Translations under genes and position numbers: made by a program
In this document: positions 2,161-50,382 of the stretch, one piece after another
How positions within the stretch are numbered: the stretch's first letter is position 1
Layout: the number at the start of each line of letters is the position of its first letter
Source of the DNA: Bradyrhizobium sp. CB82
Lineage (GTDB): Bacteria; Pseudomonadota; Alphaproteobacteria; Rhizobiales; Xanthobacteraceae
Length of the DNA: 64,000 bases
Direction: 5' to 3'
NCBI RefSeq assembly: GCF_029714405.1
Contig: NZ_CP121650.1
Coordinates: forward strand, 2,485,001-2,549,000
The notes under the pieces: generated by a model
Databases searched by the model: none
What the model was told of the DNA's origin: nothing
What the model saw: only the letters and a program-made list of their open reading frames with translations

Positions 2161-2256
2161 CCGTCATTCCGGGGCGCGCGGAAGCGCGAACCCGGAATCC
2201 AGATGTTGTGGCACGAGATTCCGGGCTCCGCCCCGCGGACCGTCACGGAATGACGG
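2161..2256. repeat. Palindromic intergenic repeat, family A copy 1
   Basis: A 96-bp element that begins CCGTCATTCC and ends GGAATGACGG as inverted ends, with an internal inverted pair around CCCGGAATC/GATTCCGGG. It lies 7 bp after the recN stop and could form a terminator-like stem. Related copies are at 2568-2650 and, inside a gene, at 26918-27019. Confidence 0.85.
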
Positions 2257-2258
2257 CT

Positions 2259-4821
<2,563 letters not shown>

Positions 4822-25280: not shown

Positions 25281-27854
25281 TCACGCCCGCTGCACGAAAC
25301 TGTCCACGACCTTCTTCTCGCCGGCCTTGTCGAAAGCGATGGTGAGCTTGTTGCCGTCGATCTTGGCAACCCGGCCGTAGCCGAATTTCTCGTGGAAGAC
25401 GCGGTCGCCAATCGAGAATTCGGACGTCGTGCCGGTGGATTTTGCCACCAGCTCGCCCTCGATCGTCATCGGGCCGCGGCGGCGCGACGAAAAACTGCCG
25501 CCGAAATCGGGCGCGGAGGAAAACGGCGAGGGCTCTTCCTCGAAGCCGCCGCGACCGCCGCCGTTGCGGCCGCCCTGGCCACGGTCGCGATGAGCTTGGG
25601 CGCGCTGCCAGCCCGGCGTCGAATAGCTCGAGCCAAACGCTTCCATGTCGTCGAACCGCGAGGCGCCGTAACCGCCGGTGCCGCCCCAGGCCGATCCGCC
25701 CTTGGATTCCGTGATCTCGACATTGGCCGCCGGCAATTCGTCGAGGAAACGTGAGGGGATCGTGGTCGACCAGGTGCCGTGGATCCGGCGGTTGGTCGCA
25801 AAATAGAGTTTTGCGCGGCGGCGGGCGCGGGTCAGGCCGACATGGCCGAGCCGGCGCTCTTCCTCCAGGCCGGCGCGGCCCTGTTCGTCGAGGGTGCGCT
25901 GGCTCGGGAACAGGCCTTCCTCCCAGCCCGGCAGGAACACGTTGTCGAATTCGAGCCCCTTGGCCGAATGCAGAGTCATCAGCGACACCGCGTCTTCCTC
26001 GGTGCCGCCGTCGCGATCCATTACCAGCGAGATGTGCTCGAGGAATCCTTGCAGGTTCTCGAACTCCTCCATCGAGCGCACGAGCTCCTTGAGGTTTTCG
26101 AGCCGGCCCGCGGCGTCCGCCGAGCGGTCCTTCTGCCACATCTCGGTATAGCCGCTCTCGTCGAGCACGATCTGGGCGAGATCGGTGTGTGTGGTCACCT
26201 CGCGCTGGGCGCGCCAGCGGTCGAATTGCGTGACGAGATCGCGCAAGGAGCCGCGTGCCTTCGGCTTCAGCTCGTCGGTCTCGACCACGGCGCGCGCCGC
26301 CTCGAACAGCGGAATGCGGCGCTTGCGGGCGTGGTCATGCAGCATCTGCACGGTGGCATCGCCTAGCCCGCGCTTCGGCGTGTTGACGATGCGCTCGAAG
26401 GCGAGATCGTCGGCCGGCGAATTGATCACGCGCAAGTAGGCGAGCGCATCGCGGATTTCGGCGCGCTCATAGAAGCGCGGGCCGCCGATCACGCGATAGG
26501 GCAGGCCGAGCGTGACGAAACGATCTTCGAACTCGCGCATCTGGTAGGATGCGCGGACCAGGATCGCGATCTCGTTGAGCTTCTCGCCCTGGCGCTGGAG
26601 CTGCTCGATCTCCTCGCCGATGCCGCGGGCCTCCTCTTCCGAATCCCAGGCGCCGGTGACGGTGACCTTCTCGCCGTCCTCATCCTCGGTGCGCAGCGTC
26701 TTGCCGAGCCGGCCTTCGTTGTGCGCAATCAGATGCGAGGCGGCGGCAAGGATGTGGCCGGTCGAGCGGTAATTGCGCTCGAGGCGGATGACCTTGGCGC
26801 CAGGAAAATCGTGCTCGAAGCGTAGGATGTTGTCGACCTCCGCGCCGCGCCAGCCATAGATCGACTGGTCGTCGTCGCCGACACAGCAGATGTTTTTGGT
26901 GGGCGCCGCCGCCGCCACCGTCATTCCGGTGCGATGCGGAGCATCGAATCCGGAATCTCGATCGGTGGACTCATTTCCAGATTCCGGGTTCAGGCCTTCG
27001 GCCTGCCCCGGAATGACGGCTTGTGGGGATGGCTTCGCCGCCGGCGCCTGCGACAACAGCCGCAGCCACAGATACTGCGCGACGTTGGTGTCCTGGTATT
27101 CGTCGACCAGGATGTATTTGAAACGCTGCTGGTACTGCCGGAGGATATCCGGGTGCTCACGGAAGATGCGGATGTTCTCCAGCAGCAGATCGCCGAAATC
27201 GGCAGCGTTCAGGATCTTCAGCCGCTCCTGATAGCTCGCATAGAGCTTGCCGCCCTTGCCGTTGGCGAACATCGCGGCTTCGCCCGACGGCACCTGCGTC
27301 GGGTTCAGCCCGCGGTTCTTCCAGCCGTCGATCAGGCCGGCCAGCATGCGCGCCGGCCAGCGCTTGTCGTCGATGTTTTCGGCTTGCAGGAGCTGCTTCA
27401 ACAGCCGCACCTGATCGTCGACATCGAGCACGGTGAAATTCGACTTGAGCTGCGCGAGCTCGGCGTGTGTCCGCAGGATCCGGCCGCCGATCGAGTGGAA
27501 GGTGCCGAGCCACGGCATGCCTTCGACCGCCTGTCCCAGCATCTGGCCGAGGCGGTGCTTCATCTCGCGCGCGGCCTTGTTGGTGAAGGTCACCGACAGG
27601 ATCTCGCCGGGGCGCGCGCGGCCCTGGCTCAGGATATGGGCGATGCGCGTGGTAAGCACGCGCGTCTTGCCGGTGCCGGCGCCGGCGAGCACCAGCACGG
27701 GGCCGTCCAGCGTCTCCACGGCGTCGCGCTGCTCGGGATTGAGGCCGCTCAGATATTTCGGGCCTACCGAGGCACGGGCGCGCGCGGCAATGCCGCCGGC
27801 CGCGGGCTGGTGGTCGGGAACGCCGTGAGAGGTGATTTTGCTCGGCTCGGTCAT
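25281..27854 (-). CDS. pcrA: UvrD/PcrA-type superfamily 1 DNA helicase
   Basis: An 857-residue 3'-5' helicase. Motif I AGAGTGKT is at 57-64, followed by SVTFTNKAAREM, motif II LVDEYQDTN, motif III GDDDQSIYGWRGA, motif IV RLERNYRST, and motifs V-VI with LMTLHSAKGLEFDNVFLPG and EEERRLGHVGLTRARRR. The C-terminal tail holds a Gly-rich linker (ARDRGQGGRNGGGRGG-like) and a Tudor-like RNA-polymerase-binding end (GDRVFHEKFGYGRVAKI). A family A palindromic repeat (26918-27019) is inserted in frame between motifs II and III, adding about 34 residues. Start ATG 27854; a longer frame upstream is repeat-like. Confidence 0.94.
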   Translation of the reverse strand: MTEPSKITSHGVPDHQPAAGGIAARARASVGPKYLSGLNPEQRDAVETLDGPVLVLAGAGTGKTRVLTTRIAHILSQGRARPGEILSVTFTNKAAREMKHRLGQMLGQAVEGMPWLGTFHSIGGRILRTHAELAQLKSNFTVLDVDDQVRLLKQLLQAENIDDKRWPARMLAGLIDGWKNRGLNPTQVPSGEAAMFANGKGGKLYASYQERLKILNAADFGDLLLENIRIFREHPDILRQYQQRFKYILVDEYQDTNVAQYLWLRLLSQAPAAKPSPQAVIPGQAEGLNPESGNESTDRDSGFDAPHRTGMTVAAAAPTKNICCVGDDDQSIYGWRGAEVDNILRFEHDFPGAKVIRLERNYRSTGHILAAASHLIAHNEGRLGKTLRTEDEDGEKVTVTGAWDSEEEARGIGEEIEQLQRQGEKLNEIAILVRASYQMREFEDRFVTLGLPYRVIGGPRFYERAEIRDALAYLRVINSPADDLAFERIVNTPKRGLGDATVQMLHDHARKRRIPLFEAARAVVETDELKPKARGSLRDLVTQFDRWRAQREVTTHTDLAQIVLDESGYTEMWQKDRSADAAGRLENLKELVRSMEEFENLQGFLEHISLVMDRDGGTEEDAVSLMTLHSAKGLEFDNVFLPGWEEGLFPSQRTLDEQGRAGLEEERRLGHVGLTRARRRAKLYFATNRRIHGTWSTTIPSRFLDELPAANVEITESKGGSAWGGTGGYGASRFDDMEAFGSSYSTPGWQRAQAHRDRGQGGRNGGGRGGFEEEPSPFSSAPDFGGSFSSRRRGPMTIEGELVAKSTGTTSEFSIGDRVFHEKFGYGRVAKIDGNKLTIAFDKAGEKKVVDSFVQRA
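26918..27019. repeat. Family A palindromic repeat inside a helicase gene
   Basis: A 102-bp copy with perfect 12-bp inverted ends CCGTCATTCCGG/CCGGAATGACGG. It lies within the UvrD/PcrA coding sequence. Its length is a multiple of three, and it translates without stop as about 34 residues, including AVIPGQAEGLNPESGN. Confidence 0.92.
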
Positions 27855-28302: not shown

Positions 28303-28404
28303 GCCCCTCATGGTGAGGCGCGCGAAGCGCGTCTCGAACCATGAGGCCCGAACCCTGGCCTACATCCTTCGAGACGCCCGCTTCGCGGGCTCCCAGGATG
28401 AGGA
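28303..28404. repeat. Palindromic repeat, family C copy 1
   Basis: The element runs from CCTCATGGTGAGG through stem GCGCGCGAAGCGCG, AACCATGAGG, CATCCTTCGAGACGCCCG and CAGGATGAGGAG. Other copies lie at 30584-30709 and 43743-43848. Confidence 0.85.
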
Positions 28405-28435
28405 GTTAGAGTATGAGGCAGTAGGTGCCGCGCGC

Positions 28436-30583: not shown

Positions 30584-30709
30584 CCTGAGGAGCCCGCTGC
30601 AAGCGGGGGTCTCGAAGGATGGCCGCGGGTGAGATCCGGGCCTCATGGTTCGCCCGGCGATGCGAAGCACCGTCCGGAGATGCGCGTTCCGCGCTCCTCA
30701 CCATGAGGG
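30584..30709. repeat. Palindromic repeat, family C copy 2
   Basis: Begins CCTGAGGAGCCCGCTGCAAGCGGG and ends CTCCTCACCATGAGG, opposite in orientation to the copy at 28303. It lies directly after the GlcD-type gene. Confidence 0.8.
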
Positions 30710-43742: not shown

Positions 43743-43848
43743 CCTCATGGTGGGGAGCGCGAAGCGCGTTTCGAACCATGAGGTCCTGCCCTGTGGCCCA
43801 CATCCTTCGAGACGCTTGCTTCGCAAGCCCCTCAGGATGAGGAGTTAG
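43743..43848. repeat. Palindromic repeat, family C copy 3
   Basis: Contains CCTCATGG, the stem GCGCGAAGCGCG, AACCATGAGG, CATCCTTCGAGACGCTTGC and CAGGATGAGGAG. Same orientation as the copy at 28303. It sits 21 bp from the caspase-like gene's 3' end. Confidence 0.88.
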
Positions 43849-43869
43849 AGCGTTTATGAAGCAGTAAGG

Positions 43870-50159: not shown

Positions 50160-50202
50160 ACCGTGATGGGGGGATTGTGCTTGATTACCGCGAAGGAGGT
50201 GC

Positions 50203-50327
50203 GCTCCCTCTACCGCTTGCGGGGGAGGGCTGGGGTGGGGGTGCTTCCGCGATGGAGATACTCCGAGTGCGGAGAGAACCCCCACCCGGCGCTTCGCGCC
50301 GACCTCCCCGCAAGCGGGAGAGGTTGA
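50203..50327. repeat. Inverted-arm intergenic repeat, family F
   Basis: The two arms CCTCTACCGCTTGCGGGGGAGG and CCTCCCCGCAAGCGGGAGAGG are near reverse complements, with GGGGTGGGGGTG/CACCCCCAC-type inner arms. It lies between dctQM and the hydroxyacid dehydrogenase gene. Confidence 0.8.
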
Positions 50328-50382
50328 AAGAGCCCGCGGCCCAATCGATTTCAAAATGTTCCGCTCTGAAGGAGTTTTCGCC

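Follow-up and report, generated by a model that had tools for sequence, protein, structure and literature searches.

The helicase gene and its palindromic insert

The window (the whole stretch of 64,000 nucleotides analysed, from Bradyrhizobium sp. CB82) contains a pcrA/uvrD helicase gene on the minus strand at 25281..27854, encoding 857 amino acids from an ATG codon, with a longer form starting at a TTG codon from 28085. UvrD and PcrA chains rank first for this protein in Foldseek, and its top NCBIfam match is PcrA with 765 bits, the curated cut-off of that model being higher (911). In the alignment with E. coli UvrD (3lfu), residues 35-268 correspond to residues 7-237 and residues 317-713 to residues 238-642; since the alignment jumps from A237 to G238, the 48 extra residues of the window helicase (269-316, at 26907..27050 on the minus strand) all lie together at a single position between motifs II and III. 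We take motif II to be DEYQDTN (residues 251-257, 27084..27104, minus strand) and motif III to be GDDDQSIYGWRGA (residues 326-338, 26841..26879, minus strand).

The main part of this extra linker is a palindromic insert at 26918..27019 (minus strand), which encodes about 34 residues (VIPGQAEGLNPESG...). The first-pass annotation of the window had described it as a 102-bp element of exactly 34 codons, with perfect 12-bp inverted ends, placed in frame between motifs II and III of a UvrD/PcrA gene and lengthening the protein by about 34 residues. The length (102 = 34 x 3), the inverted ends and the reading frame, open across the element, were all borne out on the sequence, the alignment to 3lfu confirmed the place, and the gain of residues can now be expressed as 34 repeat-derived residues among the 48 that E. 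coli UvrD lacks.

In structure, the insert is a head-to-head dimer of CGTC-type REPs, hereafter type A (the letters A, A2, B, C, E and G are labels of this analysis). The first unit in gene direction, at 26984..27018 (minus strand; pattern match G000:C1:2511984-2512018), has the CGTC tag and the stem ATTCCGGG/CCCGGAAT, and the second, in opposite orientation at 26919..26953 (plus strand; G000:C1:2511919-2511953), the CGTC tag and the stem ATTCCGG/CCGGAAT. Both units start with CGTCATT, so that the unpaired tag stands at one end of each. According to the part of the description by Di Nocera et al. (2013, PMC3733652) that was available, CGTC REPs have a stem of 8-9 bp starting A-T, a loop of 4-5 and a CCA-like tail, and the CGTC-1 REPs of Bradyrhizobium have differing loops. 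The window units, as read from the sequence, have stems of 7-8 bp starting ATT, long structured loops and the tails CTC and CTG.

A further property of such repeats, the presence of many dispersed copies, was also found. With the 102-bp element as query, the 10.14-Mb genome gave 83 matches at E<=10, some places being counted on both strands, and 28 at E<=0.001, while the CGTC-REP pattern occurred 28+43 times against 1+2 for the reversed control (71 vs 3). A chance resemblance of the pcrA insert to the repeat was therefore rejected. The best other full-length copy has 78% identity (E 5.6e-16). At the protein level, the strongest match of the insert peptide in the genome is pcrA itself (E 3.4e-19), followed by 19 weak ones (E no better than 5e-4), several of which fall in frames of 174-552 aa. 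The two intergenic copies with the same motifs that had been reported near 2161 and 2568 are both real: the one at 2161..2256 (plus strand) is a type A REP dimer with 72% identity (E 1.1e-5), and the one at about 2568 (2553..2659), recognised by matches to the insert and by the CGTC-REP pattern, is weaker. Between these two repeats there is a GIY-YIG nuclease-like frame, apparently shortened, at 2300-2547 on the minus strand. Such a nuclease was considered as the mobiliser of type A repeats and rejected, given that the frame was found at 2 of 41 repeat loci, both representing one place, and at 0 of 80 controls.

Other repeat families are present in the window as well. A type C copy lies at 50188..50341, type C rows being among the best matches there, and in many other species it is this family that occupies the pcrA loop; one or more type E copies lie at 28304..28421. 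In fact, when pcrA inserts of other types from other species are compared with the window, their matches outside pcrA fall mainly at 50188-50341, 28304-28421, 30584-30638 and 43779-43849 (E<=1e-4). The last three stretches carry the dispersed type E repeat (CCTTCGAGACGC...CCTCAGGATGAGG), which occupies the pcrA loop in other genera.

No near-identical second helicase copy was found in the window genome at E<=1e-10. The sole other match at that threshold is a UvrD-like protein encoded in a 711-aa frame, with 34-37% identity; its two matched pieces are only 15 bp apart, so it is without a long linker. A second copy freeing pcrA from constraint was thus rejected.

Occupation of the loop among relatives

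The site was surveyed with a natural helicase stretch devoid of insert (Ancylobacter, L050). All 147 Bradyrhizobium genomes were matched, 146 of them in two or more pieces, and the listed matches break at the insert point, this break being seen among the matches listed (10 genomes had no listed place). The genome with a single match, G031, nonetheless carries 66 extra residues when its linker is read. Linkers were read at 129 of the 130 fetched loci and contain 35-76 extra residues (median 53), counted against the 35-residue stretch from DEYQDTN to SIY in relatives without insert; no empty allele was found among these 129. The 17 genomes outside the fetched set comprise the 10 without a listed place, 6 listed ones and G092, whose two helicase pieces lie at contig ends (C220, C10), as expected from an assembly broken at a repeat. 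The one locus left unread, L226 in G026 (a genome of one contig), has a type C linker that is out of frame, owing either to a true break or to a sequencing error.

In the same bacterial family, 111 of 154 matching genomes were matched in two pieces, a few of these pieces being at contig ends, and 43 in one piece, while 4 more genomes gave no match. By genus, 30 of 41 were wholly two-piece, 10 wholly one-piece and 1 mixed. From two-piece genomes with listed places 60 regions were fetched and 57 read (L271 reaches a contig end, L286 has a stop and L317 contains N bases); these interrupted loci have 19-226 extra residues, only 19-29 in 13 of the 57. The longest linker, in L287 (G467), holds two tandem type B palindromes together with other repeat pieces, in frame over 226 extra residues.

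Outside the family, 268 of the 271 matching genomes in the order sample were judged uninterrupted by E-value, among the matches listed, and the 29 loci read out of 30 fetched (L255 was not) have 0-4 extra residues. Among the loci fetched by name, 79 of 80 were read (L106 was not) and 31 have at least 20 extra residues, including some of Mesorhizobium, Aurantimonas and Tianweitania, which means that the loop is filled outside the family as well. Two Mesorhizobium inserts, L071 and L104, have a common GPRG.APAPSGAE unit, partly doubled in L071; here the loop holds a repeat of another kind. In most of the more distant relatives sampled, motifs II and III of pcrA are joined by a short linker. The insert is, therefore, variable among relatives and absent in most of the distant ones sampled; the first-pass annotation had reckoned with a chance match should all relatives carry the same residues with unrelated codon sequence, and relatives differ both in residues and in repeats.

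Since single-linkage clustering merged the A, B and C inserts, types were set by peptide patterns: VIPG..NPES for type A, the kind found in the window, SPRLRGEV..PHPDPLP for type C and LPGLTRQS..SPGLDASRRPGDD for type B. On this basis the 129 Bradyrhizobium inserts comprise 66 of type A, 30 of type C, 15 of type B, 9 A-C mosaics and 9 others, L138 being counted under the latter though it resembles type C. The CGTC tag is common to types A and B, which are both REPs, and is lacking in types C and E; type B inserts, with a stem of 9, a loop of 5 and the tail CCA, agree with the published CGTC form. The 57 loci from the rest of the family include 10 of type E, 9 of type B, 7 of type C, 4 of type G, 3 of type A and 3 of type A2, types E, G and A2 thus being seen at the loop in other genera, and 21 linkers fit none of the defined types. 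In 12 genomes searched at E<=0.001, dispersed copies amounted to 18-55 matches for type A, 41-77 for type C and 0-39 for type B, on a scoring of 40 candidates in each genome, in which a palindrome could count once per strand; type B matches were mostly partial, and two genomes had none. The notable point is, consequently, that several repeat families occupy one loop across the genus and related genera, and not that one family has entered one gene.

Turnover, constraint and supply

The type of insert changes rapidly between relatives. On a gene tree from 630 bp of flank, 39 or more changes are needed for the 120 labelled genus rows (those of the 129 bearing a type used in the counts), against a mean of 48.7 and a minimum of 42 in 200 shuffles of the labels, so that there is some inheritance of insert type, but little. 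At 84% flank identity, 0.29 of pairs agree in type, a share which grows to 0.58 at 98%; when nearest neighbours with at least 95% flank identity are grouped into 27 disjoint pairs, the two partners bear different types in 13 of them (2 as A vs A-C). A tree of 1700 columns, for the 28 of 30 long loci with sufficient flank, places loci of different type as sisters with high support: L126 (B) and L129 (C) with 100/99, L125 (B) and L131 (C) with 100/98, and the window's type A locus and L127 (C) with 99/96. Within each of types A, B and C in Bradyrhizobium, the distance between inserts shows a weak yet significant correlation with that between flanks (Spearman 0.28-0.39, Mantel p 0.002-0.018), so vertical descent explains part of the pattern; the correlation was not significant for the A-C mosaics. 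In these nine alleles a type A remnant (IPG) directly precedes a type C repeat, an arrangement which suggests replacement inside the loop.

As to the origin of the individual inserts, the window insert finds its best match in the 12-genome search in the pcrA loop of a different species (G084, 85% over 100 bp), followed by a copy outside pcrA in G016 (82%) and then by the best other copy of its own genome (78%). The earlier claim that this family moves, or is copied, into genes stands insofar as a copy of a dispersed family lies within a gene, whereas recent movement in this genome does not follow, the G084 insert being closer than any copy at home. A single recent jump of the type A family into the window pcrA is unsupported on the same grounds. 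With a type B query, two other pcrA inserts match the full 91 bp at 91-93%, and copies elsewhere cover at most 60 positions; with a type C query, other pcrA inserts reach 83-87% identity, compared with 80% at most for copies of nearly full length elsewhere. That each species received one insertion from copies in its own genome is thus unsupported for the three queries tried, and types A, B and C seem to have a common ancestry at the site rather than being freshly copied in each species.

Exchange between species was also considered. The inserts of L125 and L172 are 98% identical and their flanks 91.7%, with 0 mismatches over 30 bp upstream and 62 bp downstream, as would be expected if a short tract had been exchanged. 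Nevertheless, raised identity adjoining the insert was not found in same-type pairs, so that a common tract is seen in only this one pair, and block exchange as a general rule is not supported. In L189, a type B insert has a 3' tail resembling that of its A-bearing clade. Both new insertion and exchange probably act.

Regarding constraint, 26 disjoint same-type pairs gave a dN/dS of 0.55 (0.46-0.66) in the insert against 0.033 in the flanks; as pairs with inserts at least 85% identical were selected, the insert ratio may be lowered. Type A inserts are seldom open in a second forward frame: of the 66, only 5 are open in one of the two alternative frames and 8 in the other. Moreover, the inserts fold far better than their shuffles, with z medians of -4.5 to -6.7 for the 54 inserts sampled and -0.07 to -0.46 for flank controls. 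The insert evolves loosely, yet stays hairpin-forming. The AlphaFold model of the window helicase is weak (mean pLDDT 67, pTM 0.46, 29 sequences). It places residues 274-317, without structure and with pLDDT <50, between a helix (258-268) and a strand (321-327), giving mild support to a disordered loop; since 249 of 857 residues have pLDDT <50, including the conserved stretches 330-339 and 360-392, the model is too weak to show disorder of that segment.

The repeat content of the genomes was compared as well. CGTC-REP pattern hits have a median of 32 in 15 genomes with insert and 6.5 in 12 without (Mann-Whitney p 0.002, for hand-picked family genomes and ignoring relatedness and genome size), a difference which supports a combination of repeat supply and tolerance. 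Exceptions exist in both directions: in G447 (81 hits) and G450 (32) the helicase match is unbroken and no insert is present, while G578 (6), G454 (8) and G561 (8) carry an insert, of only 23 residues in G454 and 19 in G561.

A proposed tolerant loop, its rivals and known systems

The reading we favour, and hold to be rather more probable than its negation, is that of a tolerant loop in PcrA/UvrD, filled by the palindromic repeats of the genome itself, the repeats being filtered by reading frame and renewed through replacement and exchange. Insertions and replacements would fall genome-wide, and those keeping the frame and free of stops may survive here since no conserved motif extends into the loop and the chain there is probably disordered; the remaining ones would be removed by purifying selection on the other parts of the enzyme. 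A resident repeat could be swapped through recombination between repeat copies or between the alleles of different species, or by insertion beside or into the old repeat, and the sequence of the resulting peptide would matter little for function. Selection may weakly favour length of the linker in itself, because none of the Bradyrhizobium alleles read is back in the short state. If the loop were purely neutral, empty alleles would be expected now and then, and the 129 read include none, which makes a weak need for a long linker a serious rival. In its full form, in which a long linker is functionally required, be it for spacing, partner binding or hairpin-aided co-translational folding, and repeats are simply the raw material, we regard this as rather unlikely. 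The absence of genus linkers with fewer than 35 extra residues in spite of rapid turnover speaks for it, as do six loci devoid of a clear repeat which keep 35-37 extra residues (L119, L141, L191, L193, L196 and L239) and an insert dN/dS below 1, a ratio possibly lowered by the choice of pairs; nevertheless, 43 of 154 relatives of the same family were matched in one piece, E. coli UvrD is devoid of the extra linker, and the inserts vary widely in sequence and length. We give still less credence to an obligate hypervariable cassette site, where the lineage would depend on some long palindrome-derived linker of any family and cassettes would be exchanged between species; in a bolder form, palindromic elements might persist better where they occupy the helicase loop, by altering how the helicase handles hairpins.

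An account compatible with the tolerant loop, which we consider a real though less than even possibility, reduces new insertion to a minimum: a few original insertions, about one lineage each for A, B and C, would have spread and been swapped between species by short-tract homologous recombination of the helicase gene. The closeness of the three queries to same-type pcrA inserts of other species points this way, together with the L125/L172 pair, while the tail of L189, the mosaics with a new family beside an A remnant, the lack of raised identity beside same-type inserts and the further families of other genera argue against it. Di Nocera and co-authors speculated, in the accessible part of their article, that REPs in repair genes have a mutator effect, many REP-decorated genes there being repair or replication genes (PMC3733652). 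An adaptive tuning of this kind, with UvrD repeats weakening or modifying nucleotide-excision repair to give mutator lineages, seems to us very improbable at this site, since mutators should be sporadic and the insert is found genus-wide and in most related genera sampled, the flanks are under strong purifying selection and the loop lies outside the helicase motifs. We give hardly any weight to an insert left untranslated through ribosome bypass of the hairpin, or to a decaying or misassembled gene. Bypassed palindromic inserts exist in yeast mitochondria (PMC6649704, from the text at hand), and the out-of-frame linker of L226, the stop in L286 (a draft with 9% contamination), the N bases in L317 and the contigs ending at the site in G092 could be taken as signs of decay or misassembly; however, 129 of 130 genus loci are in frame and contain no stop, and dN/dS stays below 1, features for which an insert that is bypassed or dead would have no need, and a good number of genomes are in one or few contigs.

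Repeats in repair genes were reported from 2000 to 2013, in the sources as seen, with no clear means of telling chance from function. In this context, one site read in more than 100 species (129 genus and 57 family loci), with the family changing between sisters, represents a natural experiment, and the many inserts in one loop make the choice between tolerated junk and required spacer directly testable. The pattern suggests a way in which a conserved enzyme is continually supplied with new protein sequence by selfish palindromes.

The comparison with known systems is drawn from the parts of each source available. The Br-REP1 and Br-REP2 repeats of B. japonicum USDA 110, which resemble the window element in motif (CCGGAATCTCGAGATTCCGG; CGAGATTCCGGGTTCGG...CCCCGGAATGA) and arrangement, are described as widespread in the genera Bradyrhizobium and Rhodopseudomonas and were reported from 3' UTRs and intergenic regions, with no mention of pcrA in the text consulted (PMC5082802). 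The palindromic elements of Rickettsia (RPE; Ogata 2000, via PMC2229807 and PMC3733652) are in-frame palindromes of about 105-146 bp tolerated in conserved proteins, as is the window insert, and the likeness proposed in the first-pass annotation holds for this manner of in-frame insertion; they belong, however, to another genus and occur in 19 reading frames, in contrast to the many families at one site of one gene described here. RPE-4 and RPE-6 were equated with CGTC REPs by Di Nocera et al. (PMC3733652). In the mitochondria of Nematomorpha, long palindromes in coding genes are gained and lost between species, as here, but they are perfect inverted repeats scattered over mitochondrial genes and, in the text consulted, not described as copies of dispersed families (PMC6649704). 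The closest system is that of the CGTC REPs, with the same tag and head-to-head arrangement as types A and B, for which insertion in genes, UvrD/Rep helicase included, is already published, as are REPs at about the same recB site in two Xanthomonas species (Di Nocera et al. 2013, PMC3733652); the portion of that article covered describes no site occupied genus-wide, no multi-family site and no turnover between sister species. A literature search, with most subscription papers and the figure and supplement of the 2013 article outside its range, found no single helicase site common to many repeat families across species. In-gene REPs are thus already known in themselves and, as far as the literature searched extends, it is the cross-species pattern at the helicase loop which is new here.
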